Source of the DNA: Escallonia rubra
Lineage: Eukaryota; Streptophyta; Magnoliopsida; Escalloniales; Escalloniaceae
Length of the DNA stretch: 64,000 nt
NCBI GenBank assembly: GCA_033065855.1
Contig: JAVXUO010001613.1
Coordinates: 833,336 to 897,335 of the forward strand
Reading direction: 5' to 3'
Numbering within the stretch: the stretch's first letter is position 1; each line of letters opens with the position of its first letter. Shown piece by piece: positions 1 through 62,342 of the stretch. Position numbers and translations under genes: made by a program. A model generated the notes under the pieces. It was not told the origin of the DNA, did not search any database, and worked only from the letters and a program-made list of their open reading frames with translations.

Positions 1-616
1 CTACGTCCCCGACGACAATATCGGGTATATCTACTCTCTGCCAATGGCTGTTTCTCACGACATCAACTTGCTGGCTTTTGCCACTGTCCACGGAGAGCTT
101 TTGGCATTGTCTTTCTGGCCAAAAGTTACTCCCAGCAGAGGCAAGGACTGCACCAAATATAGCAGCAAGTTTCGCTACACATTCATACCATCCTACTTCT
201 AGGCCATGCTTTCTTATGCCAAATCCAATAGAAAGGACGGTGGAAACAAGTAGTATGAGAATCATTGGATCCTTGAGGGCTTCCAATATAAAATAGTAGA
301 AGGTCTTCGCTGCAGGCATATTATCTCCATACATGTTAGAACCGAAGACTTGACGCCGGCAGGCAATGTCACTTTCATCACCACGGATCCCTCTTTCAAT
401 GTGGGTTTCTAGAGCTGAAACTATACCCTCAATACCTCCATGCTCTTGTATCAACCTCTGATCTCTTCTTTCCACAAGCTCGATGATGCTTGCTATTCTG
501 ATCCTAGAGAACCGATCTTGGTTCATATCCAGAGCAGTAAACAGCGGGGTCTGCCCAAGACACGACGCAATCACTGTGTCTGCATTGCCAGTGCTAGGTA
601 CGGACGTGATGGACAT
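1..616 (-). CDS. Partial ACA-like Ca2+-ATPase pseudoenzyme-family copy, MSITS-type, 3' end beyond window
   Basis: Reading leftwards from an ATG at 616-614 there are 205 codons without a stop or frameshift up to the window edge. The start matches the aligned ATGs of the relics at 12124 and 23845. The frame covers the short N-terminus, a cytosolic stretch with GGIEGI and FGSNMYGDN, TM1-TM2 (LKDPMILILL... GSNFWPERQ) and the start of the actuator domain (VDIPDIVVGDV). It lacks the calmodulin-binding N-terminus of the canonical copies. The catalytic Asp region lies outside the window. Its relative at 22591-23845 has Asn there, so I infer a non-catalytic protein. Whether the gene is intact cannot be judged from this fragment. 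Confidence 0.7.
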   Translation of the reverse strand, partial: MSITSVPSTGNADTVIASCLGQTPLFTALDMNQDRFSRIRIASIIELVERRDQRLIQEHGGIEGIVSALETHIERGIRGDESDIACRRQVFGSNMYGDNMPAAKTFYYFILEALKDPMILILLVSTVLSIGFGIRKHGLEVGWYECVAKLAAIFGAVLASAGSNFWPERQCQKLSVDSGKSQQVDVVRNSHWQRVDIPDIVVGDV

Positions 617-12124: not shown

Positions 12125-13785
12125 TTTCAACAGAATGTGGAACGAGAAGAAAATGTCAATCAGTGACTAAAGCAAGATACGAAGCTGGTTCTCTCAATGT
12201 TCGTCCTCCAAGCAAAAGCACATGGAGAATCAGTTGCTGTGATACAGCACTCCAGGAACCTGGAGTCAATGGCTACATCAAGCTCTGGCATTCTCCAATT
12301 TATGGGGTATTCCGGATCGATTATAAATTATGCTCAAGTGGCCTCCTTGTTATGAGCAGTAACATGCTTGTAAGTATTACTTTATTTTTTTCAGTATCTT
12401 AGTTTAATTGCTTCTGCCAGCGAGAAGTTCTTGACGTCATTCAGTACTTCACTTTCGAACTCATCCATGACGAATACGACTGAACGGAGGCAGAAATTAT
12501 GTCGATGGCAAAAGAAAAAGTTGAATTTTGAACTGCAAAGAATTTGCAAATGAGTTTATGCATATGATTTCCGTGGTTTGGGGCTTCTGTGAGATTAGTC
12601 AACTCTCTCACCTGATTCGATTTGACTTCTGTATTTTAACAAAAACATGTTATGGGAACAAATATAATATGTATCTGGTTCCAGCATATCTCAAAAAGAA
12701 TCGTTCTATAGATTCCCCGAACGCAGAAATTCAACAATCAGTCTCCTTTATGATGAGTCCATCACCAACAACCTAATGTCTGCATGAAAGCTTCTACTCG
12801 TTAAAACGACTTAGACTAATGAAAAATGGGGCTGACTTGGCTTCGCTAATACATGTTAGGAAACAAATACAAAGCCAAACGAAATTAGTACTGTAAATAG
12901 CGAATGGACAAGACAACCAGAATTGAACCCTTGCTACTATTCTCAGCTTCGATCTGTAGTCCCTGTGAAATAGCGAAGGGACAAGACAACCAGGATTACG
13001 AAGGCAAACTGCCAATCCAACCTTTTCAACTGATGAAGTTAACTCGTCGTGCTGAGCTTGTAGAGGCGTTTGCTCTTCACAATCGCGGCTGCTTATGCTC
13101 ATCATTTCGCCTCACATCTTGTTCGTTGTAACCAAGTGACCAGCATAATTACGTACCCATCTGCAACCTTGAGGCCAGAAAGAGGAATGGATATCTTAGA
13201 ACCCCCTGCGCAGGGTGAAGCAAGCCCTTTCTTTTTCACCTTTGAAATCTTCCTTTTTCCGATATAGCTCCCTATTTGCATGCCTCCTATTTGAAATTTA
13301 GATATAGGGAAGCTAGAGGTGAAGTGCTCTTTGGTTCTTCTTTGATCTTAACAGGTCGAACAAGCCTCGGTGTTTGTCCAAACCTGACCTCTCTTCGGAT
13401 CCGTATTCTATTTTTTGTCTTAACTTTTTCTGGGGGAGAGTCCTTTTTATTGTTTTGCTCTCTTGTGCACTTCATATGTACGAGGATTTGGAACTGGCTT
13501 GCGTCCCCTTGGTGCAGTTTTTAACGTACTACCTTCACGGCTTTACCTATCCCAGTAACAAATAAAAAGTACCCCGTGAGAGTAGAGGGTAGAACGACCA
13601 TATGGTTCTCAGGCATTAGGTCAACAGTCATACTCATGGGTATACCTAAGCCAAGAATTTGTAAGTTCCCAGTAAAATGTTCAAAAGAAGAAGAGAAATT
13701 TCCTCAAAAAGTATAATTAAACAACCAAAAAAAAAAACGTAGATGTTTGGAAGTTACATGTACGTGTAAGAGATTCAGCATCTGA
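12125..13785. other. Spacer of middle tandem unit
   Basis: Homologous to 617-3601 and 23846-25674. It joins the 5' flank of the MSITS-type stub to the 3' flank of the pseudoenzyme copy. The only recognisable coding debris is the ACA relic at 12983-13190. The remainder contains no supportable gene. Confidence 0.6.
12983..13190 (-). pseudogene. ACA core fragment stranded in the spacer
   Basis: Minus-strand frames read MMSISSRDCEEQTPLQAQ and then ELTSSVEKVGLAV. These match the canonical MMSTISRDTDEQTPLQAR...KLTSSIGKVGLAV (coding region about 34795-35000), the link from the actuator domain to TM3. Stops and indels surround it. It looks like a scrap of a canonical-type pump that predates the pseudoenzyme expansion, since a related scrap lies in the next spacer. 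Confidence 0.75.
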
Positions 13786-15801
13786 TCATTTGACTTTAGA
13801 CTTGTATACTGGCCACCTGACATTACGGAAAAATGACATATTCAAGATAGGGATATACTTGACAAGCCAGGAAATTGGCCAAGATACAGCTGCAATGGCA
13901 ATGCAAATGCCCCATTGTCCCATATCCAACCTAGCTGTATCTGAATACCTTCCAAAGACCTCCGCCATCAGTGCCCGAAAGACGACAGTTATTCCATTGA
14001 TTGTCCAAACCAACTTCTTCTTCTGTATCTCCTCAAAGAAATTTTGCTCAAACTCCTGGTAAACATGTTGAAGTCTTGACAGAGGACATATGTGTGGAAG
14101 ATCATTGTACTCTGTACCTTGTTGCTCACTTTGAAGAGTGTGTTTCCCTTGAAATGTATGGTTAGGAGTGTGGCTACCTGATATAAACTTTGAACCAATA
14201 TGTTCCTAAGCATGATGTTGTTTATCAGTGTCTCCTTTCTGTCCCTAGGTGGCTTGTGCATGATCTCACCAGGCGGTTGCTTTACAACAAGAGTTAGAGC
14301 AGCCACTGTACCCACTATCAGCTTTAACCACATAAGTTGAAACACTGGAAATGGGGACTTACCTTCTGAAACTACTTCAATGAAGTGAACACCACGAGGT
14401 TCTCTGGGTGAAATTTCCATCACAGAGTCGATTATCAGAGCAACAAAACTTGCGGTTAGCAGAAATTCAGTGTATGCCTGGATACCGTCATAAGTACCTC
14501 TACCCCACCTCAAAATGTCCACTGCAGATGGAAATTCATTATTGAGGATGATAATCTCTGAGCATGCCTCGGCCATTTCTGCACTTCTACTCCCAAAACA
14601 AAGACCGATATCGGCTTCCTTTAGTGCTCTTACATCTCCTATGCCACGTCCAAGAAATGCAACAACGTTCCCCTTATCTTTTAAACACTGCACAAAAAGA
14701 AATTTGTCCAAGGGTGTAGCTCTTGCCATCACACGAATGTTGTCAACTTTCTCAAGTCTCTCTTCTGGTGTATATTTTCTAAACTCCTGACCTTCAACTA
14801 CTATGTTATGTTGATTTTTACCAGCCTCAAGTATTCCACATTCTGTAGCTACATTACTGGCAGTGAACATGCTATCTCCTGTGATCAATTTCAAGGTAAC
14901 TCCAGCACCTATACAATCATTTAAAGCTTTTTTTACTCCAGGACGAAGCGAGCTTCTTAAACCCACCAAGCCTAGTAGAATTAGTCCTGGTGGGCTGGAA
15001 GTAAAAAATTCCTCTATTGATATTTTTTTGTGTGCCAAAGCTATGCAGCGAAGGCCATCTTTTGCCATGCCTTCAATAGTATGCTGCAACAGCTCCCTTT
15101 CATTCTTATTCATGGCTTTGACAATTCCAGTGGTCTCGTAATACTGTGAACACATGCGTAAGATCACATCTGGTTCTCCCTTGCGAAGCACATGGAATGA
15201 TTTGTCAGCAGTCTGAATCAGCACCCCGCTTTGTTTGTTTTCAGGGTTGAAGTATTCAGTTCCTATTATGGTGCAGCTCCTCTTCAAAGCTTCTATGTCC
15301 ATGCCAATTTTTTGAACTGCCCAATCAAAAATAGCCTTTTCGGTTTTTAGTGGAGACTCAGACAATTTTGAAGGGGGCAGACTTGTATTCAAACCAGTCC
15401 CTTGGTGAAGCAACTCTAGAACGTATGGTGCAATCAAATTGCAAGGAACTCCTTCGATAGAGCTAAGACCTAACCAAAATTTAGTTACCTGTTGCAAAAG
15501 GAAACGTATAGGACATTGATGGGATAGTAGCATAAGATATAAATGCTTCTCATTCACGAAATATCATGGATGACCATCATAAGCAGTAATACTACTAACT
15601 AAAGGAGAATTCCATCACTATTTAAGTGAAACAAAATGCCTTGCCAAAAAAGAATTGATTGGGAATGTGAAAGAATTTGGAGGTGAGGGGAAAGGCGGGA
15701 GTGATCATGGTGGCTGATCCATGCCTCAGGTGTGTGTATGAGTGGAGTCATTAGTGCAAGAGTGGGGTGATCAACCTGAGAACTTACTATTGTGGTTCTA
15801 A

Positions 15802-16316: not shown

Positions 16317-16390
16317 GCGAGGAACCACATTTGAACTCATGACTCGACGATCTTGAGTCCTCTGCTTTACCACTTGAGCCATCCCGCCCA
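16317..16390 (-). repeat. tRNA-derived SINE-like head
   Basis: On the minus strand, TGGCTCAAGTGG matches a Pol III A box and, about 40 bp on, GTTCAAATG nearly matches a B box; the outline resembles a tRNA. The arms do not form a proper acceptor stem that I can verify, so it is read as a SINE head or tRNA relic, not a tRNA gene. Confidence 0.4.
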
Positions 16391-18026
16391 TTGATCCGGG
16401 AGCTAAACCATTCTGTAAAGCTACCCTCGGACGAGTTTTCGACGTGCCTGGGAGTATTATGTTCTCTTCTAGTTTATTATGGCAAAGTGAACGGGTCTGT
16501 TAAATGGGAGGGAATATATCTGAAACGCCAACATATCAACACATGATCTACCTAAATTGTGGAGGCCTCTCCTTATCAGGTCAACGGGAGTGTGTCTCAG
16601 ATGCTATGCAGTTTTACCCCTGCTAACCAGAGGTGGTTTGTGAGGCATATGACTCTCACTCAACTTTGAAATGCTACGGAGAGACCAAAAGAAATCTAAA
16701 AGGGCTCGAAATTTAAGACAACGGCCTCATGTTTATCAAGATGATAGATTGGCCACTTCATGTAATTATGATCTATCCACATAGAAATCGAACCACAGGC
16801 GTCACCAGGCGACTATCCCATGAAAAGTATATTTGCTTCATCATGAAAAATTGACCAAGAATAAGTACCTCTTTGGTGTCCGTTGTCAGGCTGCCGGTTA
16901 TGTTTGTACATATGGTGGTGGCCTGTCCAATGACACGGCAAAGCGAGGGTCTTTTCAGTAGAACATCGGCATCCATCATTCTCTTCATCGAATAAGCAAG
17001 AGAAATTTTGACAGCCAGCAACAGGCCTTTTGGAGTTGAAGCTAACGCAATCATAGCTGGAGTAGTTGCAATTCCCACTAAAGCGGTGACTACATCAAGG
17101 AATTTCATCTCTCCACCGCCAGGTACCCTATGTAACGTCTCATTATAAATGTTCGCTGCTAAGAAGCGAACTAACACCACTAAAAGAACCAGGAGAGCAA
17201 CTGCACGACCAGCCTTACCAACTGAAGATGTAAGGTTTTCGCACTGATCTATGAGCCTCCCATCTAAATGAATTATACGGCTCTTTTTGTTCCTGCCAAC
17301 TGCAGTGACCAGCATCTGAGCATGCCCATGGACAACACTAGTGCCGGAGAACAAGAACAAGTTGTTGAGGCTATCAACCTTAAGACGCTCAGCTTTACCA
17401 TTTAGTAAGTTTTCTACTTGTATTGAAATCCCCCTTAGAAACAGTCCATCAGCAGGAACTTGATCTCCAGGCATCAAGAAAACTACATCACCAACGACAA
17501 CATTAGATATTGGTATTCGCTGCGACTGGCCGAGTCTCACAACATCAACTTGCGGGATGATGCTGCTCGCTTTGGATATCTTTTGGCATTGCTTGTCAGG
17601 CCAAAAGTTACTTATAGCAGAGATGATCATTGTTGCAAGAACAGCTGCAAGGGCTATTGCCCCGTTTTTCCATCCTTCTCTGAGGCCATAATTTCTTATG
17701 CCAAAACCAATAGAAAGAACAGCACAACTAAGTAGGATGAGGATCATTGGATCTATAAGGGCGTCCAAGGCAAACTCAGAGAACGTCTTTGCTGCAGGCT
17801 GTTTCTTTCCATACACATTCGAGCCAAAGGCTTTTTGTCTGCTGCTGATGTCATCTTCATCACCATTGATTCCGTCCTCCACATTGGTTTCGAGTGCTTT
17901 GGCTATGCCAGCAACACCACCCAGCTCCTCAAGGGACCTCTGATCTTTCCTTTTCACAAGCTTGGTGATGCTTGATATATCGATGCCAGAGAAACGAACT
18001 GGCTCTACTTCAATTGAAGTAGACAT

Positions 18027-22183: not shown

Positions 22184-22465
22184 GTACATGTACTTCAAGT
22201 TCAACCGGTATGAGCGAACCTGTAGGCCAAGATACAGTAGCAACTCTAATAAACACTCCTCCCCCTCAGTATCTACAAAGTTCTTCAGAAAATCCCCATC
22301 ACCTCTTGGAGAATGATCCTTGCATAGAATCCATCCAGAAACTGGCAAAGCACACAGTCTCTTAACTATGCATTGACACCAAAAATCTCTTCACCTCCAA
22401 CCTGTAAGGTCAGAAGGATCATGATATGGTATGAGACTTTGCGCTATTAGGTTCCTCCACATGAC
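22184..22465 (-). pseudogene. C-terminal scrap of a canonical ACA pump
   Basis: It aligns with 32791-33225 of the intact pump (the end of TM7 through to the C-terminus), with internal deletions of roughly 45 and 110 bp and several frameshifts. A near-identical scrap lies at 31621-32010 and another at 57895-58315. Homology ends sharply near 22466, about 125 bp before the MSITS-type relic begins. Confidence 0.75.
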
Positions 22466-22590
22466 ATTGTTGATGTGCATTATAGTAGTTTCTCGTATTT
22501 GTTTCAAGTACAAGCTTTTTTGCACGGACAAGTAGTGTCCTGGTTCAATGCAGATTCATATTGTTCTAGTGTGAAAATCAACACTAATTA

Positions 22591-23845
22591 GAACTAGAAA
22601 CATTACCTCCTTGGAATCCATTGTTAGGCTACGAGTTGCATTTGTACATATTGTAGTAACCGATCCAATTGCATTGCAGAGTGATGGTTTCCTCAGAAGA
22701 ACATCATCGTCTATCAGTTTTTTCATTGAATAAGCCAGAGCTATTTTCACGGCAAGCAATAGACCTCTTGGAGTTGAAGTTACCGCAATCATAGCTGGAG
22801 TGGCTACAATTCCTACTATAGCAGCCAGGGCATCAGAGATATGTGTTTCGCCACCAACGGACACTTGATTACCTTCTTCATTGTAGATGTTACTTGCAAA
22901 CAAGCGACACAACAACACCGGGAAAAATCAGGGAAGCAACTGCATCGCCAACCTTACCTATTACTGAGGTCAGGTTTTCAAACTGTTCTACACGCTTCCC
23001 ATCTAATTTAATTGTTTGGCTCTCTCTGTTCTTGCCAACTGACGTGACAACCATGCAAGCATACCCAAGGACCACGTTAGTATCAGAGAGAAAGAATGGA
23101 TTCTCCTGGCCATCAACTGTAATACGTGTACTTTGACCGTCGGTTTCTAATTTGTCTACCTGGATTGAGCTCTCGGTATCTAAGTAGAGTCCATCAGCAG
23201 GAACTTGGTCTCCAGGCTTTAGGAAAACTACGTTCCCGACGACAATATAGGGTATATCTACCCTCTGCCAATCGCCGTTTCTCACGACATCAACTTGCTG
23301 GATTTTGCTACTGTCCACGGAGAGCTTTTGGCATTGTCTTTCAGGCCAAAAGTTACTCCCAGCAGAGGCAAGGATTGCACCAAATATAGCAGCAAGTTTT
23401 GCTACCCCCTTCATACCATCCCACTTCTAGGCCATGCTTTCTTTTGCCCAATCCAATAGAAAGGACTGTAGAAACAAGTAGTATGAGAATCATTGGATCC
23501 TTGAGGGCTTCCAATACAAAATGGTAGAATGTCTTCGCTGCAGGCTGATTATCTCCGTACATGTTGGAACCAAAGGCTTGACGCCGGCTGGCAATGTCTC
23601 TTTCATCACCGCGGATCCCGTTCTCAATGTGGGTGTCTAGAGCTGAAACTATACCCTCAATGCCTCCATGCTCTTGTTGCAACCCCGTGATCTTTCTTTC
23701 CCACAAGCTCGATGATGCTTGCTGGTTTGATCTTAGAGAACCGATCTGGCTCGATATAAACATCAGTAGACAGCGGCGTATGCCCAAGAGCCGATGCAAT
23801 CACTGTGTCTGCATCTTCAATGGTAGGAAGGGACGTGATGGACAT
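22591..23845 (-). pseudogene. Frameshifted MSITS-type ACA-like relic, exon 1 only
   Basis: The ATG at 23845 opens MSITSLPTIEDADTVIAS. An extra G (about 23700) shifts the frame at VGKKDHG, and another extra G in a G run (about 23408) shifts it near WYEG. A further break lies near 22915. Across the frames the order TM1-TM2, actuator domain, TM3-TM4 is kept up to SLTMDSKE, followed by a GTAATG donor at the same place as the intron of the other copies. The catalytic Asp position reads Asn (CTNATRSLT), TGES is absent and PEGLP is PRGLL. The exon 2 half is missing. Confidence 0.85.
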
Positions 23846-25674
23846 TTCAGCAGAATGTGGAATGAGAAGAAAATGCCAATCAGTGACTAAAGCAAGAAAC
23901 TAAGCTGGTTCTCTCGGTGTTCGTTCTCCAAGCAAAAGCTCATGGAGAATCAGTTCCTCTGATACGGTATTCCAGGAACCAGGAGCCCAATGCTATATCA
24001 GACTTTGGCTTTCTCCAATTTCTGGGGTATTCCAGAAAGATGATAAATGATACTCAAGTGGCCCCCATTTTATCAGCATTGACATACTTATGAGTCTTAC
24101 TAATTTATTGTTTGCAGTATCTTAGTTTAATTGTTTCTGCCGGCGAGGAGTTCTTGACATCATTTAGTACTTCACTTTCTAACTCATACATGACGAATAT
24201 GAATTTGCAAATGAGTTTATATGTACGATTTCAAAGGTTTGGGGCTTACATGAGATTACTGTACCTGATTCTGACTTCTGCAATTTAACAAAAACATCAT
24301 ATGGGAACAAATGTAATATGTATCTAGTTGCAGCATATCTTTAAACAATTCATTCTATAGATCCCTGAAGGCAGAAACTCAACGACCAACTTCTTTTATG
24401 ATGAGTCCATCACCAACAACTGTCTGCTTAAAAGCTTCAACTAGTTTTAACGATTTGAACTAGTGAAAAATAGGGCTGACTTATACAAGTTAGGAAATAA
24501 ATACAAAGCCAAAGGAATCGATACTTCAATATGCATGCCCCTTTTAATGGTTTTAAATTTAATAATTATTCACGAGGAAAATGGCTCGTAATTTTCTATT
24601 AGGTGTTATTGAAATCAAGATATTTGCCCAAAATACGAAGAAAATGGCTCGTAATTTCAATTAGGTGTGCTTGAAATCAAGATATTTGCCCAAACATCTT
24701 TGCCCCAACATATTAGAATTAAAAGGAATTGAAGGTCATGGAATAAGGAAGGCATTATGTAAGAGCCAATGGCAGGCCTTCTGGAATTGCACCAACTACA
24801 AAACTAAGCGTAGCAGTAACAATTCTGACCGCAGAATTAATATGTCATCAACCTTTGTTTTGTTTGCATTGAAAGCTCCTATTCTCAGCTTCAATCTGTA
24901 GTTCCTGTGAAATGGCGAATTGACAAGAAAACCAGAATTACAAGGGCAAACTGCCATTTTCAATTGATGACGTTAACTCAATGTGCTGAGCTTGAAGAGA
25001 CGTTTTCTCATTGCACTCGCGGCTGATTGTGCTCATAATTTCGCCTCACATCTTGTTCATAGTAACCAAGTGACCAGCATTCTGGCGCACCCATATGCCA
25101 CCTTGGTGCCAGAAGGCAAAATGGATATCCTAGAACCCCTGCGCGGGGTGAAGCAAGTCCTTTCTTTCACCTTTCCAATCTTCCTTCTTCCGATATGGCC
25201 CCCAATTTGCGTGCTTCCTATTTGAACTTTAGATATGGGCAGCTGGAGGTGAAGTGCTCTTTGCTTCTTCTTGGATCATAAGATATTGAACAAGCCTCAG
25301 TGTTTGTCCAAACCTGACCTCTCTTAGGATCCGTATTCTATTTTACTTCTTAACTATTTCTAGCTAGGGGAGAGTCCTTTTTGTTATTTTGCTCTCTTGT
25401 GCACTTCATCTGTACGAGGATTCGGAATTGGCTTGCGTCCTATCCCAGAAACAAATAAAATGTACCCCGTAGAGGGTGGAACGGCCATATGGTTCTTGGG
25501 CATTAGGTCAACATAGTCATACTCATGGGTATACGTAAGCCAAGAAATTTGTAAGTTCCCAGTAAAATGTTCAAAAGAAGAAGATAAATTTCCTCATAAA
25601 GTACGTATTAAAAAAACACAAAAAAACGTAGATGTTTGAAAGTTACATGTATATGTAAGAGATTCAGCATCTGA
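23846..25674. other. Spacer of third tandem unit
   Basis: Homologous to the spacers at 617-3601 and 12125-13785. Apart from the ACA scrap at 24765-25135 I see no gene. Confidence 0.6.
24765..25135 (-). pseudogene. ACA core fragments stranded in the spacer
   Basis: Two pieces, about 24765-24885 and 24945-25135, align with canonical coding positions 34622-34740 (TM4 and preceding loop) and 34800-34990 (actuator to TM3). They are in the correct order but riddled with indels. The second piece is the counterpart of 12983-13190. Confidence 0.7.
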
Positions 25675-28600
25675 TCATTTGACTTTAGACTTGTATATTG
25701 GCCACCTGACATTACGGAAAAATAATATGTTCAAGATAGGGATATACTTGACAAGCCAGGAAATTGGCCAAGATATAGCTGCAATGGCAATGCAAATGCC
25801 CCACTGTCCCGTATCCAACCTAGCTGTATCTGAATACCTTCCAAAGACTTGCACCATCAGTGCCTGAATGACGACAGTTATCCCATTGACTGCCCAAACC
25901 AACTTCTTCCTCTGTATCTCCTCAAAGAAATTTTGCTCGAAACTCCTAACGGTAAACATGTTGAAGACTTGACAAAGGAAATATGTGTGGGAGATCATTG
26001 TACTCTGTACCTTGTTGCTCACTTTGAAGAGTGTGTTTCCCTTGAAATGTATGGTTAGGAGGGTGGCTACCTGATATAAACTTTGAACCAATATGTTCCT
26101 AATCATGATGTTGTTTATCAGTGGCTCCTTCCTGTCCCTAGGTGGCTTGTGCATGATCTCACCAGGCGGTTGCTTTACAACAAGAGTTAGAGCAGCCACT
26201 GTACCCAATATCAGCTTTAACCACACAAGTTGAAACACTGGAAATGGGGACTTACCTTCTGAAACTACTTCAATGAAGTGAACACCACGGAGTTCTCTGG
26301 GAGAAATTTCCATCACAGAGTCGATTATCAGAGCAACAAAACTTGCGGTCAGCAGATATTCAGTGTATGCCTGGATACCGTCATAAGTACCTCTACCCCA
26401 CCTCAAAATGTCCACTGCAGACGGAAATTCATTATTGAGGATGATAATTTCTGAGCATGCCTTGGCCATTTCTGCACTTCTACTCCCAAAACAAAGACCG
26501 ATATCAGCTTCCTGTAGTGCTCTTACATCTCCTATGCCACGTCCAAGAAATGCAACAACGTTCCCCTTATCTTTTAAACACTGCACAAAAAGAAATTTGT
26601 CCAAGGGTGTAGCTCTTGCCATCACACGAATGTAGTCAACTTTTTCAAGTCTCTCTTCTGATGTATAGTTTCTAAACTCCTGACCTTCAACTACTATGTT
26701 ATGTTGATTTTTACCAGCCTCAAGTATTCCACATTCGGTAGCTACATTACTGGCAGTGAACATGCTATCTCCTGTGATCAATTTCAAGGTAACTCCAGCA
26801 CCTATACAATCATTTAAAGCTTTCTTTACTCCAGGACGAAGCGAGCTTCTTAAACCCACCAAGCCTAGTAGAATTAGTGTTGGTGGGCTGGAAGTGAAAA
26901 ATTCCTCTATTGATATTTTTTTGTGTGCCAAAGCTATGCAGCGAAGGCCATCTTTTGCCATTCCTTCAATCGTATGCTCCAACAGCTCCCTTTCAATCTT
27001 GTTCATGGCTTTGACAATTCCAGTGGTCTCGTAATACTGTGAACACATGCGTAAGATCACATCTGGTTCTCCCTTGCGATGCACATGGAATGATTTGTCA
27101 GCAGTCTGGATCAATACCCCACTTTGTTTGTTCTCAGGGTTAAAGTATTCAGTTCCTATTATGGTGCAGCTTTTCTTCAAAGCTTCTATGTCCATGCCAA
27201 TTTTTTGAACTGCCCAATCAAAAATAGCCTTTTCGGTTTTTAGAGGAGACTCGGACAATTTTGAAGGGGGCAGACTTGTATTCAAACCAGTCCCTTGGTG
27301 AAGCAACTCTAGAACATATGGTGCAATCAAATTGCAAGGAACTCCTTCGATAGAGCTAAGACCTAACCAAAATTTGGTTACCTGTTGCAAAAGGAAACGT
27401 ATAGGACATTGATGGGATAGTAGCATAAGATATAAATGCTTCTCATTCACGAAATATAATGGATGACCATGAGACACAGTAATACTACTAACGAAAGGAG
27501 AATTCCATCATTATTTAAGTGAAACAAAATGCCTTGTCAAAAAAGAATTGATTGGGAATGTGAAAGAATTTGGAGGCGAGGGGAAAGGTGGGAGTGATCA
27601 TGGGGGCTGATCCATGCCTCAGGTGTGTGTATGAGTGGAGTCATTAGTGCAAGAGTGCGGTGATCTACCTGAGACTTACTATTGTGGTTGCAAATGATCA
27701 GAGGCTGCTTTCTTCTGAAGGACTCTTGGCACGGTACATCCCATTGTCAAGGAGGTTACCTGATTGCAGGATACTGGTTGTTATTGAAGAGGCAAAGATG
27801 GCTGATTTCCTAACGAGTGGGAGCTAGTTGCAGTTGCTAAATTTGACATGTTATACGAGTGTAACCCAGATGGGGATGATGAGGACTAGTGATTTGGTTC
27901 CTGCAAATAATGGTAAGTTCTCAGTGAAGTCTGTTATCAGATGTTTTCAGGAGGAGGCGTGAGGGGATTCCGTGTGCAGAAGCGTTTCTGTTTTCAGGCA
28001 CCAAGTAAGATTGCTCTTCTTCTTCTTTTTCTTTTTCCTTGTATAAGACAGCAGTTTTGGGAGCAATTCTTTGTTTGGATTAAAGAAGAGGTATCAGATT
28101 ATTGCTAAATCATGTTAGATGTTCAAGGAGGAGAAGACAGTAAACAACTGTCTTCTAGTATTATGAGGCAATAGGTGACTTGATGACGATGTTACTCGTA
28201 CAGTTTAATTATATGCGAGGAACCACATTTGAACTAGTGACTCGAGGATCTCGAGTCCTTAGACTCTACCACTTGAGCTGTCCCGCCCATTGATCCGGGA
28301 GCTCAAGTTTACCATTCTGTAAAGCTACTCTCGGACGAGTTTTCAACATGCTTTATGTTCTCTTCTAGTTTATTCTGGCAAAGTGAACGGTCTGTTAAAT
28401 GGGAGGGAATATATCTGAAACGCCAAGATATCAACACATGATCTACCTAAATTGTGGAGGCCTCGCCTTATCAGGTCAAAGGGAGTGTGTCAGATGCTAT
28501 GCAGTTTTACCCCTGCTAAACAGAGGTGGTTTGTGAGGCATATGACTCTCACTCAACTTTGAAATGCTACGGAGAGACCACAAAGAAATCTAAAAGGGCT

Positions 28601-29924
28601 CGAGATTTAAGACAACGGCCTCATGTTGATCAAGATGAAAGATTGGCCACTTCATGTAATTATGATCTATCCATATAGAAATCCAACCACAGGCGTCACC
28701 AGGCGACTATCCCATGAAAAGTATATTTGCTTCATCATGAAAATTAAATTGACCCAGAATAAGTACCTCTTTGGTGTCCGTAGTCAGGCTGCCGGTTATG
28801 TTTGTACATATGGTGGTGGCCTGTCCAATTACATGGCAAAGCGAGGGTCTTTTCAGTAGAACATCGGCATCCATCATTCTCTTCATGGAATAAGCAAGAT
28901 AAATTTTGACAGCCAGCAACAGGTCTTTTGGAGTTGAAGCTAACGCAATCATAACTGGAGTGGTTGCAATTCCCACTAAAGCGGCGACTACATCAAGGAA
29001 TTTCATCTCTCCACCACCAGGTACCCTATGTAACGTCTCATTGTAAATGTTCCCTGCAAAGAAGCGAACTAACACCACTAAAAGAACCAGGAAAGCAACT
29101 GCACGACCAGCCTTACCAACGAAAGATGTAAGGTTTTCGCACTGATCTATGAGCCTACCATCTAAATGAATTATATGGCTCTTTCTGTTCTTGCCAACTG
29201 CAGTGACCAGCATCTGAGCATGACCATGGACAACACTAGTGCCGGAGAACAAGAACAAGTTGTTGAGGCTATCAACCTTAAGACGCTCAGCTCTACCGTT
29301 TAGTAAGTTTTCTACTTGTATTGATATCCCCCTTAAAAACAGTCCATCAGCAGGAACTCGATCTCCAGGCATCAAGAAAACTACATCACCAACGACAACA
29401 TTAGATATTGGTATTCGCTGCGACTGGCCGTGTCTCACAACATCAACTTGCGGGATCATGCTGCTCGCTTTGGATAGCTTTTGGAATTGCTTGTCAGGCC
29501 AAAAGTTACTTATAGCAGAGATGATAATTATTGCAAGAACAGCTGCAAGGGCTATTGCCCCGTTTTTCCATCCTTCTCTGAGGCCATCATTTCTTATGCC
29601 AAAACCAATTGAAAGAAGAGCACAACTGAGAAGGATGAGGATCATTGGATCTATGAGGGCGTCCAAGGCAAACTCAGAGAACGTCTTTGCTGCAGGCTGT
29701 TTCTTTCCATACACATTCGAGCCAAAGGCTTTTTCTCTGCTGCTGATGTCATCTTCATCACCATTGATTCCGTCCTCCACATTGGTTTCAAGTGCTGTGG
29801 CTACGCCAGCAACACCACCCAGCTCCTCAAGGGACCTCTGATCTTTCCTTTTCACAAGCTTGGTGATGCTTGATATATCGATGCCAGAGAAACGAATTGG
29901 CTCAACTTCAATTGAAGTAGACAT
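25675..29924 (-). CDS. ACA-like Ca2+-ATPase pseudoenzyme, intact two-exon copy, 954 aa
   Basis: Exon 1 is 29924-28767 (386 codons) and exon 2 is 27381-25675 (568 codons plus stop), spliced GAG|GTACTT...CAACAG|GTAACC in phase 0. The whole P2B fold is present: TM1-TM2 near 90-142, actuator domain, TM3-TM4 near 268-342, P and N domains, TM5-TM10. However the catalytic Asp is Asn375 (NITGS), TGES is NGRA (209-212, with a one-residue deletion), PEGLP is PKDLL (332-336), TGDGTND is LGRGIGD (665-671), and the TM6 ligands are Lys775 and Gly779 instead of Asn and Asp. The N-terminus lacks the calmodulin-binding stretch. The loop between TM5 and TM6 is about 16 residues longer. K489-G490, TGD (589-591) and ARATPLDK remain. 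I infer a non-pumping protein; expression is unproven. Confidence 0.85.
27382..28766 (-). other. Intron of pseudoenzyme copy 2
   Basis: A 1385-bp phase-0 intron at the same position as in copy 1 and near-identical in content. It contains the same antisense LINE relic (about 27680-28170) and tRNA-like head (28217-28289, minus strand). An upstream ATG inside the intron also opens into exon 2, but splicing joins the two halves of the fold exactly. Confidence 0.85.
28217..28289 (-). repeat. tRNA-derived SINE-like head, second copy
   Basis: Counterpart of 16317-16390 within the duplicated intron. The A-box-like and B-box-like GTTCAAATG elements are kept, with several substitutions in the arms. 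Confidence 0.4.
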
Positions 29925-31620: not shown

Positions 31621-32010
31621 TGTGCATGTACTTCAAGTTCAACCGGTATATGCTTGACAAGCGAACCTGTAGGCCAAGATACAGTAGCAACTCTAATAAA
31701 CACTCCTCCCCCTCAGTATCTACAAAGTTCTTCAGAAAATCCCCATCACCTCTTGGAGAAATGATCCTTGCATAGAATCCATCCAGAAACTGGCAAAGCA
31801 CACAGTCTCTTAACTATGCATTGACACCAAAAATCTCTTCACCTCCAACCTGTAAGGTCAGAAGGATCATGATATGGTATGAGACTTTGCGCTATTAGGT
31901 TCCTCCACATGACATTGGTGATAGGTGTCTCTGTCCGACCAACATGCTTTTTATCCAGGAGTTGTTGTTACGCTGCTCTGTGGTGAGAGCGAGAGCCCCC
32001 AAGGCCTTTT
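31621..32010 (-). pseudogene. C-terminal scrap of a canonical ACA pump, second copy
   Basis: It aligns with 32791-33310 of the intact pump with the same internal deletions as 22184-22465, but extends further (through the region encoding the TM6-TM7 loop). Multiple frameshifts. The flank 31100-31620 is near-identical to 21660-22183. Confidence 0.75.
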
Positions 32011-32781
32011 TCTAGTTTCTCATTAGTCACTCTCCAAAGTAGCTGAAATTTCGCACTAGTTTTCTTTCCTAATTACTGGTGAAGTTGGTTCATTCTAGAG
32101 TGGCTATATATGTTTAGGTTGTCTATGCTATCCTACGGAGGAATTTGGTTCATCATACGGTTAACTGGTTATCTAGGCTGTTCCTATGAAGTAATTTGGT
32201 TCATGATAAGGTTAATTGATAATGTTGCAGATTTGTTTGTGAGTTGCTTGACTTCTGCTAGCACGATCTCCCAAAACGCAAAAGCATCAATAACTGTCAT
32301 ATCTTTAATTCAATCTGGATAAGTTTCAGCTACAATGCCGGGGCTGGCCACTTGTTGTGGAAGCACAATTATATGAAAAACGGACTTCGGTGATAACCAA
32401 AGGCTGCGACGCCAAAGCCAAAGTACTTAAGAGGTCCATGTTATATGCATTATAATTTATACACTGTAAACTTCTATCCATATTCCATCGAAATGTTCTT
32501 AGTACACCGTCTCTTCTATTCGGTATTTCCCACTGGTTATCCTTGTTACTGACCCCCAGCTAAGCAGATGTCATTCCAGAAACAAAGATTTACAATAGGA
32601 CTGTGATACCTGATACGCTGACAGAAACAAAATGAAGAAACTTGAGAAAAGCGTATCCATCGTGTGCAACGGACTACTACTCAATTACATAAATACAAAG
32701 ATATCAATTACAGAGGATTCGTTATTATGAGATAGAAAGAATGAAATGCCGGCAGATGCTGTAATACGTTTGGCTATGTGC
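32011..32781. other. 3' flank of canonical pump 1, partly duplicated at 58316-58842
   Basis: Homology to 58340-58560 and 58690-58842 is obvious. No gene is seen. It would contain the 3' UTR of the pump that ends at 32782. Confidence 0.55.
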
Positions 32782-35700
32782 TTATCTTCTGTACATGTAC
32801 TTCAACTTCTGCCACTTCAGTAAACTGAAAAATGGTGTCTCCGGAACCGGTATATACTTCACAAGCCAACCTATAGGCCAAGAAACGGCAGCAAATCCAA
32901 TACAGACTCCCCATTGACCCCAATTTAACCTCTCAGTATTTGCGAACTTCTTCAGAAACTCCACCATTACCACTTGAAGAATGACTGTTATCCCAATAAT
33001 TCCTAGAAATAGTTTGTTCTTATGTATGCCCTCGAACACATTCTTCTTCTCGAGCTTCCTTGCATTAAATTCATTGAAAACCTGGCAAAGCACAAACGTA
33101 TTGAATATCAAAGTGTCCCTTACCTTTGCATTGACTCCAAAAATCTCTTCACCTCCAAACTGTAAGGTCAAGAGCACCGCTATCTGATACAAGGCTTGAG
33201 CTAATAGGTTCCTCCACATGATGTTGGTGATAAGTGGCCCTGTACGACCAACGGGCTTCTTGTTCATGAGCTCTTTTGTGGGCCGCTCAGTGGAGAGAGC
33301 GAGAGCGCCCAACGTGTCCATAATTAGGTTGACCCATAGCAACTGGACTGCTGTTAGTGGTACTTCACCAGCTGAAACTGCAGCCACAAAATTGATTACT
33401 AGAGCTGCTACATTAACGGTTAGCTGAAACTGAATGAACTTCTGAATGTTGTTGTAGACGCATCTTCCCCATCTCAGAACTGTTGCAACAGAAGCGAAAT
33501 TATCATCCAAGATAACGATATCCGAGCTCTGTTTCGCGACTTCAGTACCCTGGATACCCATAGAAAGCCCAATATCAGCTTCTTTAAGGGCAGGTGCATC
33601 ATTTGTGCCATCACCAGTGACAGCAACCACATGCCCTTTCTGTTTAAGGCATTGTACCATTAACAATTTGTCAAAAGGAGATGATCTTGCCATCACACAA
33701 ATTTTGTCAACTTTTTCCATTCGCTCCTCCGGCGTGTAGTTACGGAATTCCACCCCTTCTACCACTGCACCGCTGTTCATGTCCTCATTCGGCTTAAGTA
33801 TTCCGCATTCAGTTGCTATAGCTCTTGCAGTAAAGACATTATCACCCGTGATCATTTTGATGTTCACTCCTGCATACTGACAATCTTCAACAGCTTTCTT
33901 CACCCCAGGCCGACATGGATCCTTTAGACCAACCAGCCCCAAAAGGGTCAAGCATTTGTCATCAATCTTTTCGTCCTCCGCGGTCTCTTGAACCTGTTTA
34001 TGTGCAAAGGCAATGCATCGAAGACTGCTAGCAGCCATACCTTGAATTAGCCGATCAAATCTGCTCCTTTCAGTATCATCCAGGGCCTTGATTTCTCCAG
34101 TTGGATCATAGTATTGCGAACACATTGCTAGAATCATCTCTGCAGCTCCTTTCCAGTGAACATGGACCGTATCATCTGCATTTTTCTTCATCAGAACCCC
34201 ACTTCTCTTCTTCTCCGAATTGAACGCTTCCACGTGCAGAATTCTGCAACCCTCTTTCATTTTCTCCATATCCATATTCAGTTCTAGAACAGCCCAAGAA
34301 AGAATTGCCTTTTCTGTGGGACTGCCCGAGAACTCGATATCGGAACCTGAAGTAGGTCTGTAGACACTACCAGTTGTATTCAGACCAACTCCTTGGTGGA
34401 GAAATTCAAGAACATTTTCTTTGAGGGATGTTGAGCTTCTTCCTTCCATTGATTCTTGACCAAGCCAAAACTTTGTTACCTTCATCTGGTTTAGCGTGAG
34501 AGTTCCTGTCTTGTCAGTGCATATGGTGGTGGCAGAGCCCATTGTCTCACAAGCAGAAAGCTTTCTCACCATAGCCTGATCAGCCATCATTCTCTTCATC
34601 GAATAAGCAAGAGTTAATGTAACCGCCAATGGTAGCCCTTCTGGAATTGCAACAACTACAATGGTAACTGCAGCAGCTACAATTCCCACCACAGCATTAA
34701 TGATATCATCAACCTTGGTTTTGCTCCCATTGAACTCTGTATTGCCATTTTCATCCTCTGTATTACCTGTAAAGTATCGAATCAACAAGACAAGAAGGAC
34801 TAGGAAGGCAACTGCCAAACCAACCTTCCCAATTGATGAAGTCAGCTTGTTGAGCCGAGCTTGTAGAGGTGTTTGCTCATCAGTGTCGCGGCTAATTGTG
34901 CTCATCATCTCTCCCCACATCGTGTTCATCCCAACTGAAGTGACCAGCATTCTCGCGTAACCATCTGCTACCTTAGTCCCAGAAAACAGGAACGGATTAT
35001 TGTCACGATTTACCTCGACATGATCACTTTCGCCAGTCATGCTTGATTCATCCACTTGTAATGAATGACCGTCTAGAAACAATCCATCAGCAGGCACTTG
35101 ATCTCCAATCTTCAAGCAAATGACATCTCCAACCACAATGCCATATACAGAAATATGTTGCCGCCTTCCATCTCTCACCACTTCTACTTGGATATTGTTG
35201 CTCACGTTGGACAACTTGTCAAACTGTCTGTTTTGCCTAAAGTTACTTATTGCCGAGACAGATATGACAAGGAAGACAGCAACAAAGATGCTACCACCAT
35301 CATACCAGCCTTCTTTTGGTCCGTCCTCTTTCATGCCAAAACCAAGAGAAAGTCCAGCACAAACCATGAGGATGAGAATGGTTGGATCCTTCAAAGCTTC
35401 CCAAACAAATTCGAAGAAACCCTTCGTAGGCGGCTTTTGATATGTATTTCTTCCAAAGGCCTCTTGTCGTCGTAAAATGTCTTCGTCGTCGGCATGTATG
35501 CCACTTTCAACGTTTGTTTTGAGAGCAGAAGCCACACCTTCAACCCCATCAAAATTGGCAAGCTGGTCTAGATTTTTGCCTTTAACAAGTTGGGTTAGAC
35601 TTGACTGATCAACGCTGGGAAAACAGGGGTGTGGCTCAAGAACATCAATGGCTACTAGTCTATTAAATGCCACGGGTGAAACCTTACTCTTTTTTCTTGC

Positions 35701-35853
35701 CACAGAAGCTTTGAAATGAGATAGCAAGGCCCTTGAACAATAGACGAAACCAAATGCCTTGTGCCATCTCTTTTTGTTGAGTTCATTGAGGGTGATGGGA
35801 CTGCCTAGCACTGAGTCTAGATAATCTAAGTTTGCTTGCAATAACAGAAACAT
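32782..35853 (-). CDS. ACA12/ACA13-like: Autoinhibited plasma-membrane-type Ca2+-ATPase (P2B), ACA12/13-like, intronless
   Basis: A single 1023-residue frame, the usual length for plant ACA pumps. The N-terminus has a basic aromatic stretch around Trp30 (KKRWHKAFGFVYCSRALL), the calmodulin-binding autoinhibitory site of the family. Then TM1-TM2 (about 157-205), actuator TGES (273-276), TM4 PEGLP (404-408) with Ca2+ ligand Glu405, phosphorylation DKTGT (Asp447), N-domain KGA (568-570), TGD (669-671), hinge TGDGTND (746-752), TM6 Asn842 and Asp846, and TM7-TM10. All catalytic residues are present. It should hydrolyse ATP to export Ca2+ from the cytosol, relieved from autoinhibition by calmodulin. 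Lack of introns fits the ACA12/ACA13 clade. The start is the first Met and leaves the calmodulin site intact. Confidence 0.95.
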   Translation of the reverse strand: MFLLLQANLDYLDSVLGSPITLNELNKKRWHKAFGFVYCSRALLSHFKASVARKKSKVSPVAFNRLVAIDVLEPHPCFPSVDQSSLTQLVKGKNLDQLANFDGVEGVASALKTNVESGIHADDEDILRRQEAFGRNTYQKPPTKGFFEFVWEALKDPTILILMVCAGLSLGFGMKEDGPKEGWYDGGSIFVAVFLVISVSAISNFRQNRQFDKLSNVSNNIQVEVVRDGRRQHISVYGIVVGDVICLKIGDQVPADGLFLDGHSLQVDESSMTGESDHVEVNRDNNPFLFSGTKVADGYARMLVTSVGMNTMWGEMMSTISRDTDEQTPLQARLNKLTSSIGKVGLAVAFLVLLVLLIRYFTGNTEDENGNTEFNGSKTKVDDIINAVVGIVAAAVTIVVVAIPEGLPLAVTLTLAYSMKRMMADQAMVRKLSACETMGSATTICTDKTGTLTLNQMKVTKFWLGQESMEGRSSTSLKENVLEFLHQGVGLNTTGSVYRPTSGSDIEFSGSPTEKAILSWAVLELNMDMEKMKEGCRILHVEAFNSEKKRSGVLMKKNADDTVHVHWKGAAEMILAMCSQYYDPTGEIKALDDTERSRFDRLIQGMAASSLRCIAFAHKQVQETAEDEKIDDKCLTLLGLVGLKDPCRPGVKKAVEDCQYAGVNIKMITGDNVFTARAIATECGILKPNEDMNSGAVVEGVEFRNYTPEERMEKVDKICVMARSSPFDKLLMVQCLKQKGHVVAVTGDGTNDAPALKEADIGLSMGIQGTEVAKQSSDIVILDDNFASVATVLRWGRCVYNNIQKFIQFQLTVNVAALVINFVAAVSAGEVPLTAVQLLWVNLIMDTLGALALSTERPTKELMNKKPVGRTGPLITNIMWRNLLAQALYQIAVLLTLQFGGEEIFGVNAKVRDTLIFNTFVLCQVFNEFNARKLEKKNVFEGIHKNKLFLGIIGITVILQVVMVEFLKKFANTERLNWGQWGVCIGFAAVSWPIGWLVKYIPVPETPFFSLLKWQKLKYMYRR

Positions 35854-36087
35854 TCTTTCCCAAAACAGAGAAAAACGAAAACGCTAGGAATATCTCAAAC
35901 AAACGGAAGCCTCGTGCACTGAACTGTACTTTCGAAATGAAAGGAAAGGTCAGTATCAACAAGTAAACAAGCCAAAGAAAGAACGAATGTGGAACAAAGG
36001 AGCAAGAGAACTTACGTAAATTTGCAGTCTAAGAAATTGTATGAAATGGAGCAGCATGGGTTTTCAGAAACTGGAACCTCTGATGAG

Positions 36088-36096
36088 TTTATATAG
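36088..36096 (-). promoter_or_regulatory. Candidate TATA box of canonical pump 1
   Basis: Minus-strand CTATATAAA lies about 240 bp before the ATG at 35853, leaving room for a 5' UTR near 200 bp. The corresponding site before pump 2 (about 62222-62236) reads CTACATAAATAAA, a weaker match. Confidence 0.4.
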
Positions 36097-53525: not shown

Positions 53526-53779
53526 GTTTTCCAAAATATAGTGTCAAGTTTGGTTCACTTTCTTTGTCAAAATGATGAAAGGAATGTGAAGAGGTAAAGA
53601 GGGAGGAATCCCACACAGAAGGGAATTGAAAAAGTAAGTGGGTATATAATAAAGAACTCCACTTCCTTTAATACTTATGTGGTATGCTAAGATGTATGCA
53701 TGTGCACCGAGTATGGTGCGAAGCACCATACGAGGAACGATCGCACTCACACGCTCGCGCATGGCAGTGGGCTATGAGG

Positions 53780-54464
53780 CGCAAATGAGTTATTTGACTC
53801 GCTCCCACTCTTCACGTTTGGCTCCGTCACTGGCAACGCCCCCAGCGGCAACTGCGCCATCTGCCTCTCCAAGTTCGAGTCGAATTGCGTTCCACTCCAG
53901 CTGCATTGCACGTGGCTCACCGCCAATCAGATGTGTCCTTTATGTAGGTCCACAGTTCACCCTACTAAAGCTAATGTGCTGAACAAGTTAGTGTCGAAAT
54001 TGGAGGCCAGAATTCTCGGCAACAGCTTCCGGATCGAGATCGGGAGCATCAGCCAACGGCGAGCCCCATCGGAATCTGGCTGGAGGTCCTACTCCTTCGG
54101 CTCGTTCGACTACATTGTCGACGAAGGGTACGAGGTTTCGGTCGGGTCCATACACCGCCGAGGAGCGTCGGACTGTATGGAAAAGAATTCTGCTGGAGCC
54201 CCGGTTTCTCAACCCGAACTGCTGGGAGAAATACTAGCTGCAAAAGTCGCCGGCGGACGGAGTTGGCTGAGGGACTATGTCGACAGAATTTCGGCCATTT
54301 CTTTTTCCTCTCATGCGATGTCGTTTCGGAGCTCCGGCAGGTTCTTCACTGGGAGTAGCCGCAGGAGCGAAAACGTCGTCGTCGCGGCTGTCGAAGATGT
54401 GGAAGTGAATAGAGTCGGAGAGGAAATCATGGAGTTGTTTCGATGGCTTTCTGGAAGCGAATAG
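53780..54464 (+). pseudogene. Broken ATL-type RING-H2 E3 ligase gene
   Basis: A plus-strand frame reads ANELFDSLPLFTFGSVTG, then NCAICLSKFES, then LHCTWLTANQMCPLCRSTV, then a conserved ATL-type tail (GSFDYIVDE, VSVGS-HRRG, GGRSWLRDYVDR, MSFRSSGRFFTGSSRRSE, EEIMELFRWLSG) to a stop at 54462-54464. The family would be membrane-anchored ubiquitin ligases. Two defects are visible. The RING centre between SKFE and TWL is shortened so that the zinc-binding His pair and one Cys are gone. A TGA lies upstream, just before GANELF, with no transmembrane N-terminus. The tail is well preserved, so the damage is probably recent. Confidence 0.75.
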
Positions 54465-57894: not shown

Positions 57895-58315
57895 GTCTGT
57901 ATTTGTACTTCTAGTACTTCTAGTACTTCAACCGGTATATGCTAACCTGTAGGCCAAGATACAGCAACAGCTCCAATAAACACTCCCCACCCCCTCCTCC
58001 TCCTCAGTATCTGCGAAGTTCTTCAGGAACTCTCCATCACCTCTTGAAGAATGATCCTTGCATTGAATCCATCCAGAAACTGGCAAAGCAAACTAGTGTT
58101 GAATATCCAAGTGTCTTTACTATGCATTGACACCGAAAATCTCTTCACCTCCAAACTGTAAGGTCAGAAGGATCGCGATATGGTATGAGACTTGCGCTAT
58201 TAGGTTCCTCCACATGACGGCGGTGATAGGTGGCTCTGTCTGACCAACGCGCTTTTAATCCAGGAGTTGTTTGTTAGGCTGCTCTGAGGTGAGAGCCAGA
58301 GCGCCCAAGCGGCCT
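57895..58315 (-). pseudogene. C-terminal scrap of a canonical ACA pump, third copy
   Basis: Counterpart of 22184-22465 and 31621-32010, lying just downstream (in gene sense) of canonical pump 2. It aligns with about 32791-33310 with internal deletions and frameshifts. A short TACTTCTAG triplication is seen near 57904-57930. Confidence 0.75.
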
Positions 58316-58842
58316 TTTTCTAGATTCTCGTTAATTACTCTCCAGAAGTAGCTGAACTTTCGCACTGGCCTTCTTTCTTAACTTACTGGTGAAGTTGGTT
58401 CATGCTAGAGTGGCTATACATGATAAGGTCATCTATGCTATCCTATGGCGGAATTTGGTTCATCATATGGTTAACTGGTTATCTAGGCTGTTCCTATGAA
58501 GTAATTTGGTTCATGACAAGGTTAATTGGTAATGTTGCAGATTTGTTTGTGAGTTTCAGATATGATGCCGGAGTTTTATGAAAAGCAGACTTCGGTGATA
58601 AGCAAAGGCTGCGACGCCAAAGTACTCAGGAGGTCTGTAAGTTATCTTAATTATCACTAGATAATAGGTTGCTCCATGTTATATGCATTATAATTTATAC
58701 GCTGTAAACTTCTATCCAGAAAAACAAATAGGACTGTGATACATGATACAATAGGACTGTGATACATGATAGGCCGACCAAAATGAAGAAACTTGAGTAA
58801 AGTGTATCCATTGTGTGCAACGGACTACTACTATGATATCAA

Positions 58843-61986: not shown

Positions 61987-62174
61987 TCTTTCCCAAAAAC
62001 AGAGAAAAACGAAAACGCTAGGAATATCTCAAACAAAGAGAAGTCTCGTGCACTGAACTTTACTTTCGAAATGAAAGGAAGTTCAAGTATCAAGAAGTAA
62101 ACAGGCCAAAGAAAGGACGAATATGGAACGAAGGAGCAAGAGAACTTATGTAAAGTACGTTGCAGTCCAAGAAA

Positions 62175-62342
62175 TTGTATGAAATGGAGGAGCATGGGTT
62201 TTCAGAAACTGGAACCTCTGATGAGTTTATTTATGTAGACTAAGTTGTATGAAATGGAGGAGCTTGGGTGTTCAGAAACTGGAACCTCTTTATGAGTTTA
62301 TTTATGTAGACTAAGTTTTGAAATGGAGGAGCCGGGTTTTCA
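62175..62342. repeat. Tandem repeat in the presumed promoter or 5' UTR of pump 2
   Basis: About 2.3 units, each starting GAAATGGAGGAGC, containing TTCAGAAACTGGAACCTCT and ending GTAGACTAAGTT. The region upstream of pump 1 (36037-36095) has one unit. Confidence 0.75.

Follow-up and report, generated by a model that had tools for sequence, protein, structure and literature searches.

Can a gene for an ion pump lose the residues on which pumping depends and still be kept by selection? This question is raised by a locus in Escallonia rubra, on a 64,000-nucleotide stretch of contig JAVXUO010001613.1 (assembly GCA_033065855.1) that is called the window below. The window corresponds to C1406:833336-897335 of a 566-Mb genome, and the adjoining 130 kb was also examined. 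The gene in question, copy A (c859A), lies at window positions 25675-29924 on the (-) strand and resembles a P2B Ca2+-ATPase. The original prediction, which drew on two gene copies only, described it as a full-length pseudoenzyme and offered two explanations, a selected non-catalytic role or very recent decay. Most of the evidence on the family to which the gene belongs lies beyond the window. The explanation favoured here, with moderate confidence and from sequence comparison, is that copy A belongs to an old tandem family of pseudoenzymes derived from a plant P2B Ca2+-ATPase, and that it would code for a selected, probably ATP-binding membrane protein that does not pump.

The predicted coordinates proved correct, as did the spliced frame of 954 codons without an internal stop. 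The frame runs from a start codon at 29924 to a stop codon ending at 25675. Exon 1 (28767..29924, codons 1-386) codes for the N-terminus, the transmembrane helices (TM) TM1-TM4, the actuator domain and the phosphorylation motif TNITGSLT. It is followed by a phase-0 intron of 1385 bp (27382..28766), with donor GAG/GTACTT and acceptor TTTTGCAACAG/GT, where the slash marks the splice junction. Exon 2 (25675..27381, codons 387-954 and the stop) codes for the nucleotide-binding domain (N-domain), the rest of the phosphorylation domain (P-domain) and TM5-TM10.

Alignment to intact pumps confirmed each of the residue changes that had been named. In the numbering of the pump at 58846-61986, codon 375 (AAC, Asn; 28800..28802) stands at the phosphorylated Asp D448. 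Codon 333 (Lys; 28926..28928) stands at E406, the Ca2+-ligand Glu of TM4 in the motif PEGL. In TM6, codon 775 (Lys; 26215..26217) replaces the Asn N843, and codon 779 (Gly; 26203..26205) replaces the Asp D847. Codon 211 (Arg; 29292..29294) stands at the Glu of TGE needed for dephosphorylation, the motif NGRA (209-212) being aligned to TGES. Likewise, codon 667 (Arg; 26539..26541) stands at the first Asp of GDGxND, where GRGIGD (666-671) is aligned to the GDGTND of the intact pump. All these codons are on the (-) strand, and their positions in the window were computed from the codon numbers.

The further claim that the whole P2B fold is kept held only in part. In the spliced protein, four Pfam segments score over their cut-offs: Cation_ATPase_N, E1-E2_ATPase, Cation_ATPase and Cation_ATPase_C. 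The Hydrolase segment reaches 22.3 bits, under its cut-off of 26.4, compared with 58.8 and 58.9 bits in the intact pumps. The calmodulin-binding-like stretch at the N-terminus of the pumps is absent. Alignment to the pumps also reveals indels common to the family, namely a deletion after the actuator domain and an insertion of 14 columns in the TM5-TM6 loop. AlphaFold, run on exon 2 of copy A alone with 8 sequences, gave a confidence score (pLDDT) of 37.5, too poor for a fold comparison.

With copy A (c859) itself, the family has eight two-exon copies; the others are c728, c741, c768, c784, c800, c830 and B (c847). All eight, together with decayed relics near 754-758k, 790-792k and 856-857k, lie within 135 kb of the contig (C1406:728-863k). 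A whole-genome search with exon 2 of copy A found no family member beyond this array; the next matches were pumps at 51%, followed by more distant ATPases. Over this exon the closest active relatives in the genome are the four pumps of the cluster (51%) and a pump on C2121 (49%). The frame is open throughout in four copies, A and c800 with 954 codons each, c728 with 970 and c741 with 982, the last two being counted from an upstream Met. In a rooted protein tree, which contained no ACA8-type plant gene, the family is monophyletic (100). The family and a second class of relatives on C1407 are separated from the pumps and the outgroup (97), and the pumps come together at only 66.

Was pumping lost once in this family or several times? 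To define what an active pump retains, 111 reference columns were used, each showing at least 95% invariance across 78 P2 pumps presumed to be active. These consist of 75 prokaryote open reading frames and three plant pumps, P35, P62 and C2121. To collect the prokaryote set, a 66-residue piece of a pump (residues 735-800) served as bait, and 80 loci were obtained; 75 of them had a reading frame of 780-1100 amino acids containing GDG, and the other 5 were dropped before the count. A contig scan with the pump alignment gave no matches.

Of the 111 columns, the family copies all keep 55 and have all lost 29, the other 27 being mixed; at 16 of the 29 the replacement is one and the same. Since the prokaryote pumps were gathered and filtered by residues of the GDGTND stretch, invariance at positions 735-800 is partly there by construction, and 10 of the 25 columns inside this stretch are lost in all copies. 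Of the 86 columns outside it, 46 are kept and 21 mixed; the other 19 are lost, and in 10 of these a single replacement is seen throughout. The residues lost in all copies include the Glu of TGE, the TM4 Glu, the Asp and Lys of DKTGT, the Asp of DPxR, the Asp, Thr and Asn of GDGTND and the TM6 Asn. Those kept in all copies include the Thr-Glu, Phe, Lys-Gly and Arg of the nucleotide site, TGD, and an Arg and a Lys of the P-domain.

The replacements themselves are largely shared. The Glu of TGE has become Arg, Gln or Lys in 6/6 copies with exon 1 aligned, and the TM4 Glu has become Lys or Gly in the 6/6 copies aligned there. In GDGxND, Asp is replaced by Arg and Asn by Gly in 8/8 copies, while the final Asp is retained. 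The TM6 Asn is Lys in 8/8; the TM6 Asp is Gly in 6/8 and retained in c741 and c830. At the phosphorylation site, 10 of the 10 family copies aligned have Asn. An eleventh copy, the relic at 790.5k, is frameshifted at this site and was left out of the count.

Because the same Asn recurs in all ten, a base error at codon 375 is unlikely, and sequencing error was rejected as the source of Asn375. Recent gene conversion spreading the loss was also rejected, since fourfold sites around the phosphorylated position have diverged about as much as those of the gene as a whole. The differences near the site and gene-wide are, for the three comparisons between clades, 9/21 and 91/261, 11/20 and 103/272, and 7/22 and 111/285. 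Over the exons that could be aligned, the catalytic losses fit one ancestral inactivation that left mostly common replacements.

The age of this loss can be judged from the three clades of the family. Between them, protein identity is 61-69% in full-length pairs, synonymous distance (NG86 dS) is 0.68-0.73 and the pairwise ratio of non-synonymous to synonymous rates (dN/dS, or omega) is 0.27-0.38. Selection was estimated by maximum likelihood on a codon tree of 923 codons and 11 sequences, with a purpose-written implementation rather than PAML, and the results agree with the NG86 pairwise values. The data included c768 as far as its early stop, B as far as its frameshift, and only exon 2 of c784 and c830.

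The resulting omega is 0.083 in the pumps and 0.32 on the family stem. On the internal branches of the family it is 0.376, and twice the log-likelihood difference from omega 1 (2dlnL) is 168.8. The open tips have an omega of 0.36 (2dlnL 48.9) and the broken tips 0.71 (2dlnL 2.8, not significant). Constraint is found for c728/c768 (0.30, 2dlnL 52.0) and for c741 with its stem (0.36, 2dlnL 7.0). It is also found on gA2, the parent branch of copy A (0.316, 2dlnL 4.9), and on B up to its frameshift (0.331, 2dlnL 5.9). The groups needed by established P-type chemistry for phosphorylation, dephosphorylation and Ca2+ ligation were lost at the residue level, and constraint continued thereafter.

The family stayed under purifying selection after the shared loss, as seen on the internal branches, c728/c768 and c741; this is not seen for the tips of A, c800, c784 and c830. 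Very recent decay of a pump is rejected for the family: three clades separated by a dS near 0.7 have the losses in common, and constraint is seen on the internal branches. The proposed selected role, in turn, is favoured for the family and not for copy A alone.

Neutral simulation leads to a similar distinction. Only substitutions were simulated, with 200 runs per setting. At d=0.36, the distance between clades, which was run for each of three sequences, 0/200 frames stayed open per sequence and the mean number of stops was 22-24. At d=0.07 the count was again 0/200 (mean 6.7 stops), at d=0.04 it was 4/200 and at d=0.01 it was 66/200. On these outcomes, open frames in the clades carry strong evidential weight, and the open frame of copy A, taken alone, carries little.

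Where does the remaining constraint lie? Regional boundaries were set by hand after the general topology of P-type pumps, and a coarse grid was used for the 95% ranges. One regional class (the N-TM1-2 region of the tips A, B, c784, c800 and c830, taken together) reached the upper bound. Relative to the pumps, relaxation is smallest in the N-domain, with an omega of 0.26 (0.20-0.35) in the family and 0.13 in the pumps. In the actuator domain the values are 0.30 and 0.057, and in the P-domain 0.32 and 0.009. The original statement that ATP-binding elements remain agrees with this pattern: of 11 ATP-site residues, 10 are kept in all copies, 1 is mixed and none is lost in all. For instance, all 8 copies retain the counterparts of K569, E515, F545 and R613. 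In the catalytic and ion-binding set, 7 of 11 residues are lost in all copies. Constraint shifted off the P-domain, with the N-domain comparatively constrained, points to nucleotide binding without turnover.

Several observations weigh against a selected, ATP-binding protein. The comparison of the ATP-site and catalytic sets (Fisher p 0.0039) is only indicative, because both sets, the ATP set being taken from SERCA, were chosen after the conservation table had been seen. With the same sets, the catalytic residues differ from the remaining invariant sites (p 0.013), whereas the ATP set does not differ significantly from the other 89 invariant sites (p 0.12). The omega of the family, about 0.36, is fourfold that of the pumps, and the membrane region and N-terminus are least constrained (0.42 in the family, 0.10 in the pumps). 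Near TM6, fourfold divergence is below the gene-wide level (4/17, 2/18 and 4/16), so that conversion may have acted there. Three of the eight copies (B, c784 and c830) are broken, and c768 is slightly truncated, stopping early at exon 2 codon 553. Finally, the tips of A (omega 1.05, 2dlnL 0.0) and c800 (0.92, 2dlnL 0.02) do not differ from 1, and non-synonymous changes account for 32 of the 42 codons at which these two copies disagree. The tip of c830 gives 0.89 (2dlnL 0.22) and that of c784 0.945, a point estimate only.

The values for A and c800 lead to the strongest alternative, which is quite possible though somewhat short of probable. The family would indeed have been a selected pseudoenzyme, with c728 and c741 carrying the function; copy A, and c800 with it, would lately have become redundant, a drifting young pseudogene whose frame is so far unbroken. 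Neither its own tip nor that of its sister c800 departs from an omega of 1, in contrast to the constrained c728/c768 and c741, so copy A itself may now be drifting. As a third of the neutral frames stay open at the shortest distance simulated, its open frame says little to the contrary. Moreover, a frameshift is already present in B, whose protein matches that of A at 95% identity over 839 codons.

The tips of A and c800 carry few substitutions, however, and hence little power. Their differences are also clustered, with 27 of 45 base differences in the last 660 nucleotides. At nucleotides 2200-2500, where B is still comparable, c800 and B differ at 3 positions, A and B at 9, and A and c800 at 10. 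This pattern suggests a conversion mosaic, which may distort both tip estimates. The parent branch of A, and B before its frameshift, were constrained, and constraint is not measurable on the tip of A. It is only the ancestry of copy A that is known to have been constrained.

Another alternative accepts a function and assigns it to structure alone. Here the protein would occupy partners or membrane domains of active ACA pumps as a binding competitor, and nucleotide binding would be incidental. Retention of the ATP site could be explained by fold stability, and a partner of active pumps is known from Arabidopsis, where BON1 interacts with and regulates ACA8 and ACA10 (PMC5920303). This alternative appears rather unlikely, given that the N-domain is the least relaxed region and that the four nucleotide-site residues named above are kept in every copy, beyond what a bare scaffold might need.

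It is less likely still that the whole family is functionless. The array would then be a birth-and-death series of dead pump copies, and the older constraint a leftover from active ancestors. The relics, the broken copies with a tip omega not different from 1, the early stop of c768 and the fourfold weaker constraint are what such an array might leave behind. Nevertheless, the constraint was measured on branches after the loss, both internal and leading to c728/c768. Neutral runs at d=0.07 leave no frame open, whereas c728 is open over its 970 codons and c768 has a single late stop.

That the proteins still pump, through unorthodox chemistry or with Asp restored in RNA, is scarcely credible: the frame, the N-domain and many structural residues are retained, yet, besides Asp, no aligned copy has the Glu of TGE, the TM4 Glu, the TM6 Asn or two of the GDGxND residues. 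An acyl-phosphate is required by the established chemistry of P-type ATPases. Restoration of activity by one-base editing was rejected, too many other sites being lost.

If copy A belongs to a selected pseudoenzyme family, as we favour, its product would be a ten-helix membrane protein with the fold of a pump. ATP or another nucleotide would be bound between the N- and P-domains without being hydrolysed. Its own Lys (K775, and usually K333 too) would take the position of Ca2+, and the protein, held in one state, could not pump. Its most likely action would be on the active ACA pumps or their partners in the plasma membrane, as a non-pumping competitor or a nucleotide-dependent regulator. This regulatory step is a guess, and a tentative one. 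If the family is expressed, it would offer natural, pre-inactivated Ca2+ pumps with which signalling or regulatory roles of P-type ATPases could be probed apart from transport.

All 8 family copies carry one phase-0 intron, with the GTA donor and the CAACAG acceptor kept in 8/8, and the intron bodies of different clades fail to align in the pairs tested. That the splice sites persist while the bodies between them have diverged suggests that it is spliced out. It looks family-specific, because the pumps are intronless and the ACA gene on C1057 has an uninterrupted exon at that site. An ancestral P2B intron was rejected on the same comparison, C1057 being the one multi-exon ACA checked. A tRNA-like sequence lies within the introns of copies A (28264-28283) and B (16365-16384), both on the (-) strand; 2 matches were found in the window where 0.01 were expected. 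It resembles the head of a short interspersed nuclear element (SINE). Rfam and tRNA scans of the 64-kb window gave no matches.

Other family members in the window are all on the (-) strand. Copy B (c847B) has exon 1 at 16869..18026 and exon 2 at 13789..15488, with its frameshift at about 14016-14058. Of c830, the 5' part of exon 1 occupies 1..538; the remainder lies beyond the window, and the frame breaks just past the edge. A decayed exon 1 relic, c856 (22607..23773), likewise carries Asn at the phosphorylated position, and its exon 1 ends at the same point as in the other copies. Outside the window, at C1406:787026-788581, exon 1 of c784 is split by an apparent insertion of about 390 bases, and its exon 2 is open. 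Short relics matching pumps are scattered between the genes, again on the (-) strand, at 12952-13189, 22318-22519, 24737-25122, 31751-32002 and 57930-58326.

Two intact pumps share the window, P35 (32785..35853) and P62 (58846..61986), both single-exon genes on the (-) strand. P62 served as the numbering reference, and P35 has DKTGT, TGES, PEGL, GDGTND and WVNLIMD. The two pump genes are 96.6% identical over 3.5 kb (32591-36092 and 58747-62230), and two more near-identical pumps lie on C1407. These pumps are provisionally named ACA12/13-like, after their single-exon structure rather than from a comparison with Arabidopsis ACA12 itself. On the (+) strand, an open frame at 53778-54464 contains a motif resembling a RING finger (CAICLSKFE...CPLCR), spotted by eye.

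C1407 also carries the second class of P2B relatives. Two of them (L023:1938-4592 and L024:1645-4299, both on the (-) strand) are open single-exon genes of 885 codons from Met, and a third, L025 (C1407:140000-147000), is broken. In this class the N-domain is wholly deleted, and three tandem calmodulin-binding-like stretches stand at the N-terminus. TGES, PEGL and GDGxND are altered, and the Asp-Lys pair is retained. For the two open genes, the point estimate of NG86 omega is 0.50 at dS 0.15. AlphaFold on the class, with 5 sequences, gave a pLDDT of 32.8, too poor for a fold comparison. The grouping of this class with the dead family may be long-branch attraction. One might suppose that the ACA12/13-like array yielded two non-pumping kinds, the Asp-less two-exon family and the N-domain-less class. 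Both would then work alongside the active pumps as a local regulatory set, the dead members responding to nucleotide or calmodulin and thereby tuning live Ca2+ export. This idea is speculative and, on balance, unlikely.

How does the family compare with known systems? Pseudokinases and other pseudoenzymes are well known, among them pectin-digesting pseudoenzymes of beetles, which are digestive enzymes of unrelated fold. Such proteins are reported to be retained in an expanded gene family of herbivorous beetles (PMC6549527). The family described here would be a pseudoenzyme offshoot of P2B pumps. Searches of the open-licence full-text literature found no plant P2B pseudoenzyme, nor any family of P-type ATPase pseudoenzymes maintained by selection in a plant. 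The best match among solved structures is Arabidopsis ACA8 (PDB 8QMP), with E 6e-64 for exon 1 and 1e-109 for exon 2. ACA8 has the catalytic Asp, TGES, PEGL, GDGTND and WVNLIMD, whereas copy A has none of these intact. Arabidopsis ACA12 and ACA13, plasma-membrane P2B pumps of cluster 3, are intronless (PMC5920303). The family differs from them in having one intron and in lacking the catalytic and ion motifs, which the pumps of the window keep.

Whether P-type ATPases can act independently of transport is an open question, for which human TMEM94 (ERMA) and C. elegans CATP-1 are disputed examples. TMEM94 is remote in sequence. Among the proteins found described, it is the nearest P-type-like one without detectable ATPase activity; it is reported to lack TGES, to bind AMPPCP with micromolar affinity and to have a proposed phosphorylation site, D417 (PMC12134183). 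Its status is disputed (PMC13322241). The plant family resembles it in being P-type-like without TGES and, unlike TMEM94, is a recognisable P2B offshoot. For CATP-1 a pump-independent role has been claimed; the protein has the catalytic Asp D409, however, and in the nekl assay the phenotypes of D409E suggest a need for pumping (PMC11631496). It is a precedent for asking about P-type ATPase action without pumping, although, unlike the family, it keeps its Asp. In SERCA, D351N and related mutants are reported to show that the change from Asp to Asn blocks phosphorylation while ATP can still bind. D351N is a single change made in the laboratory, whereas in the Escallonia family many catalytic sites have been changed together in nature.

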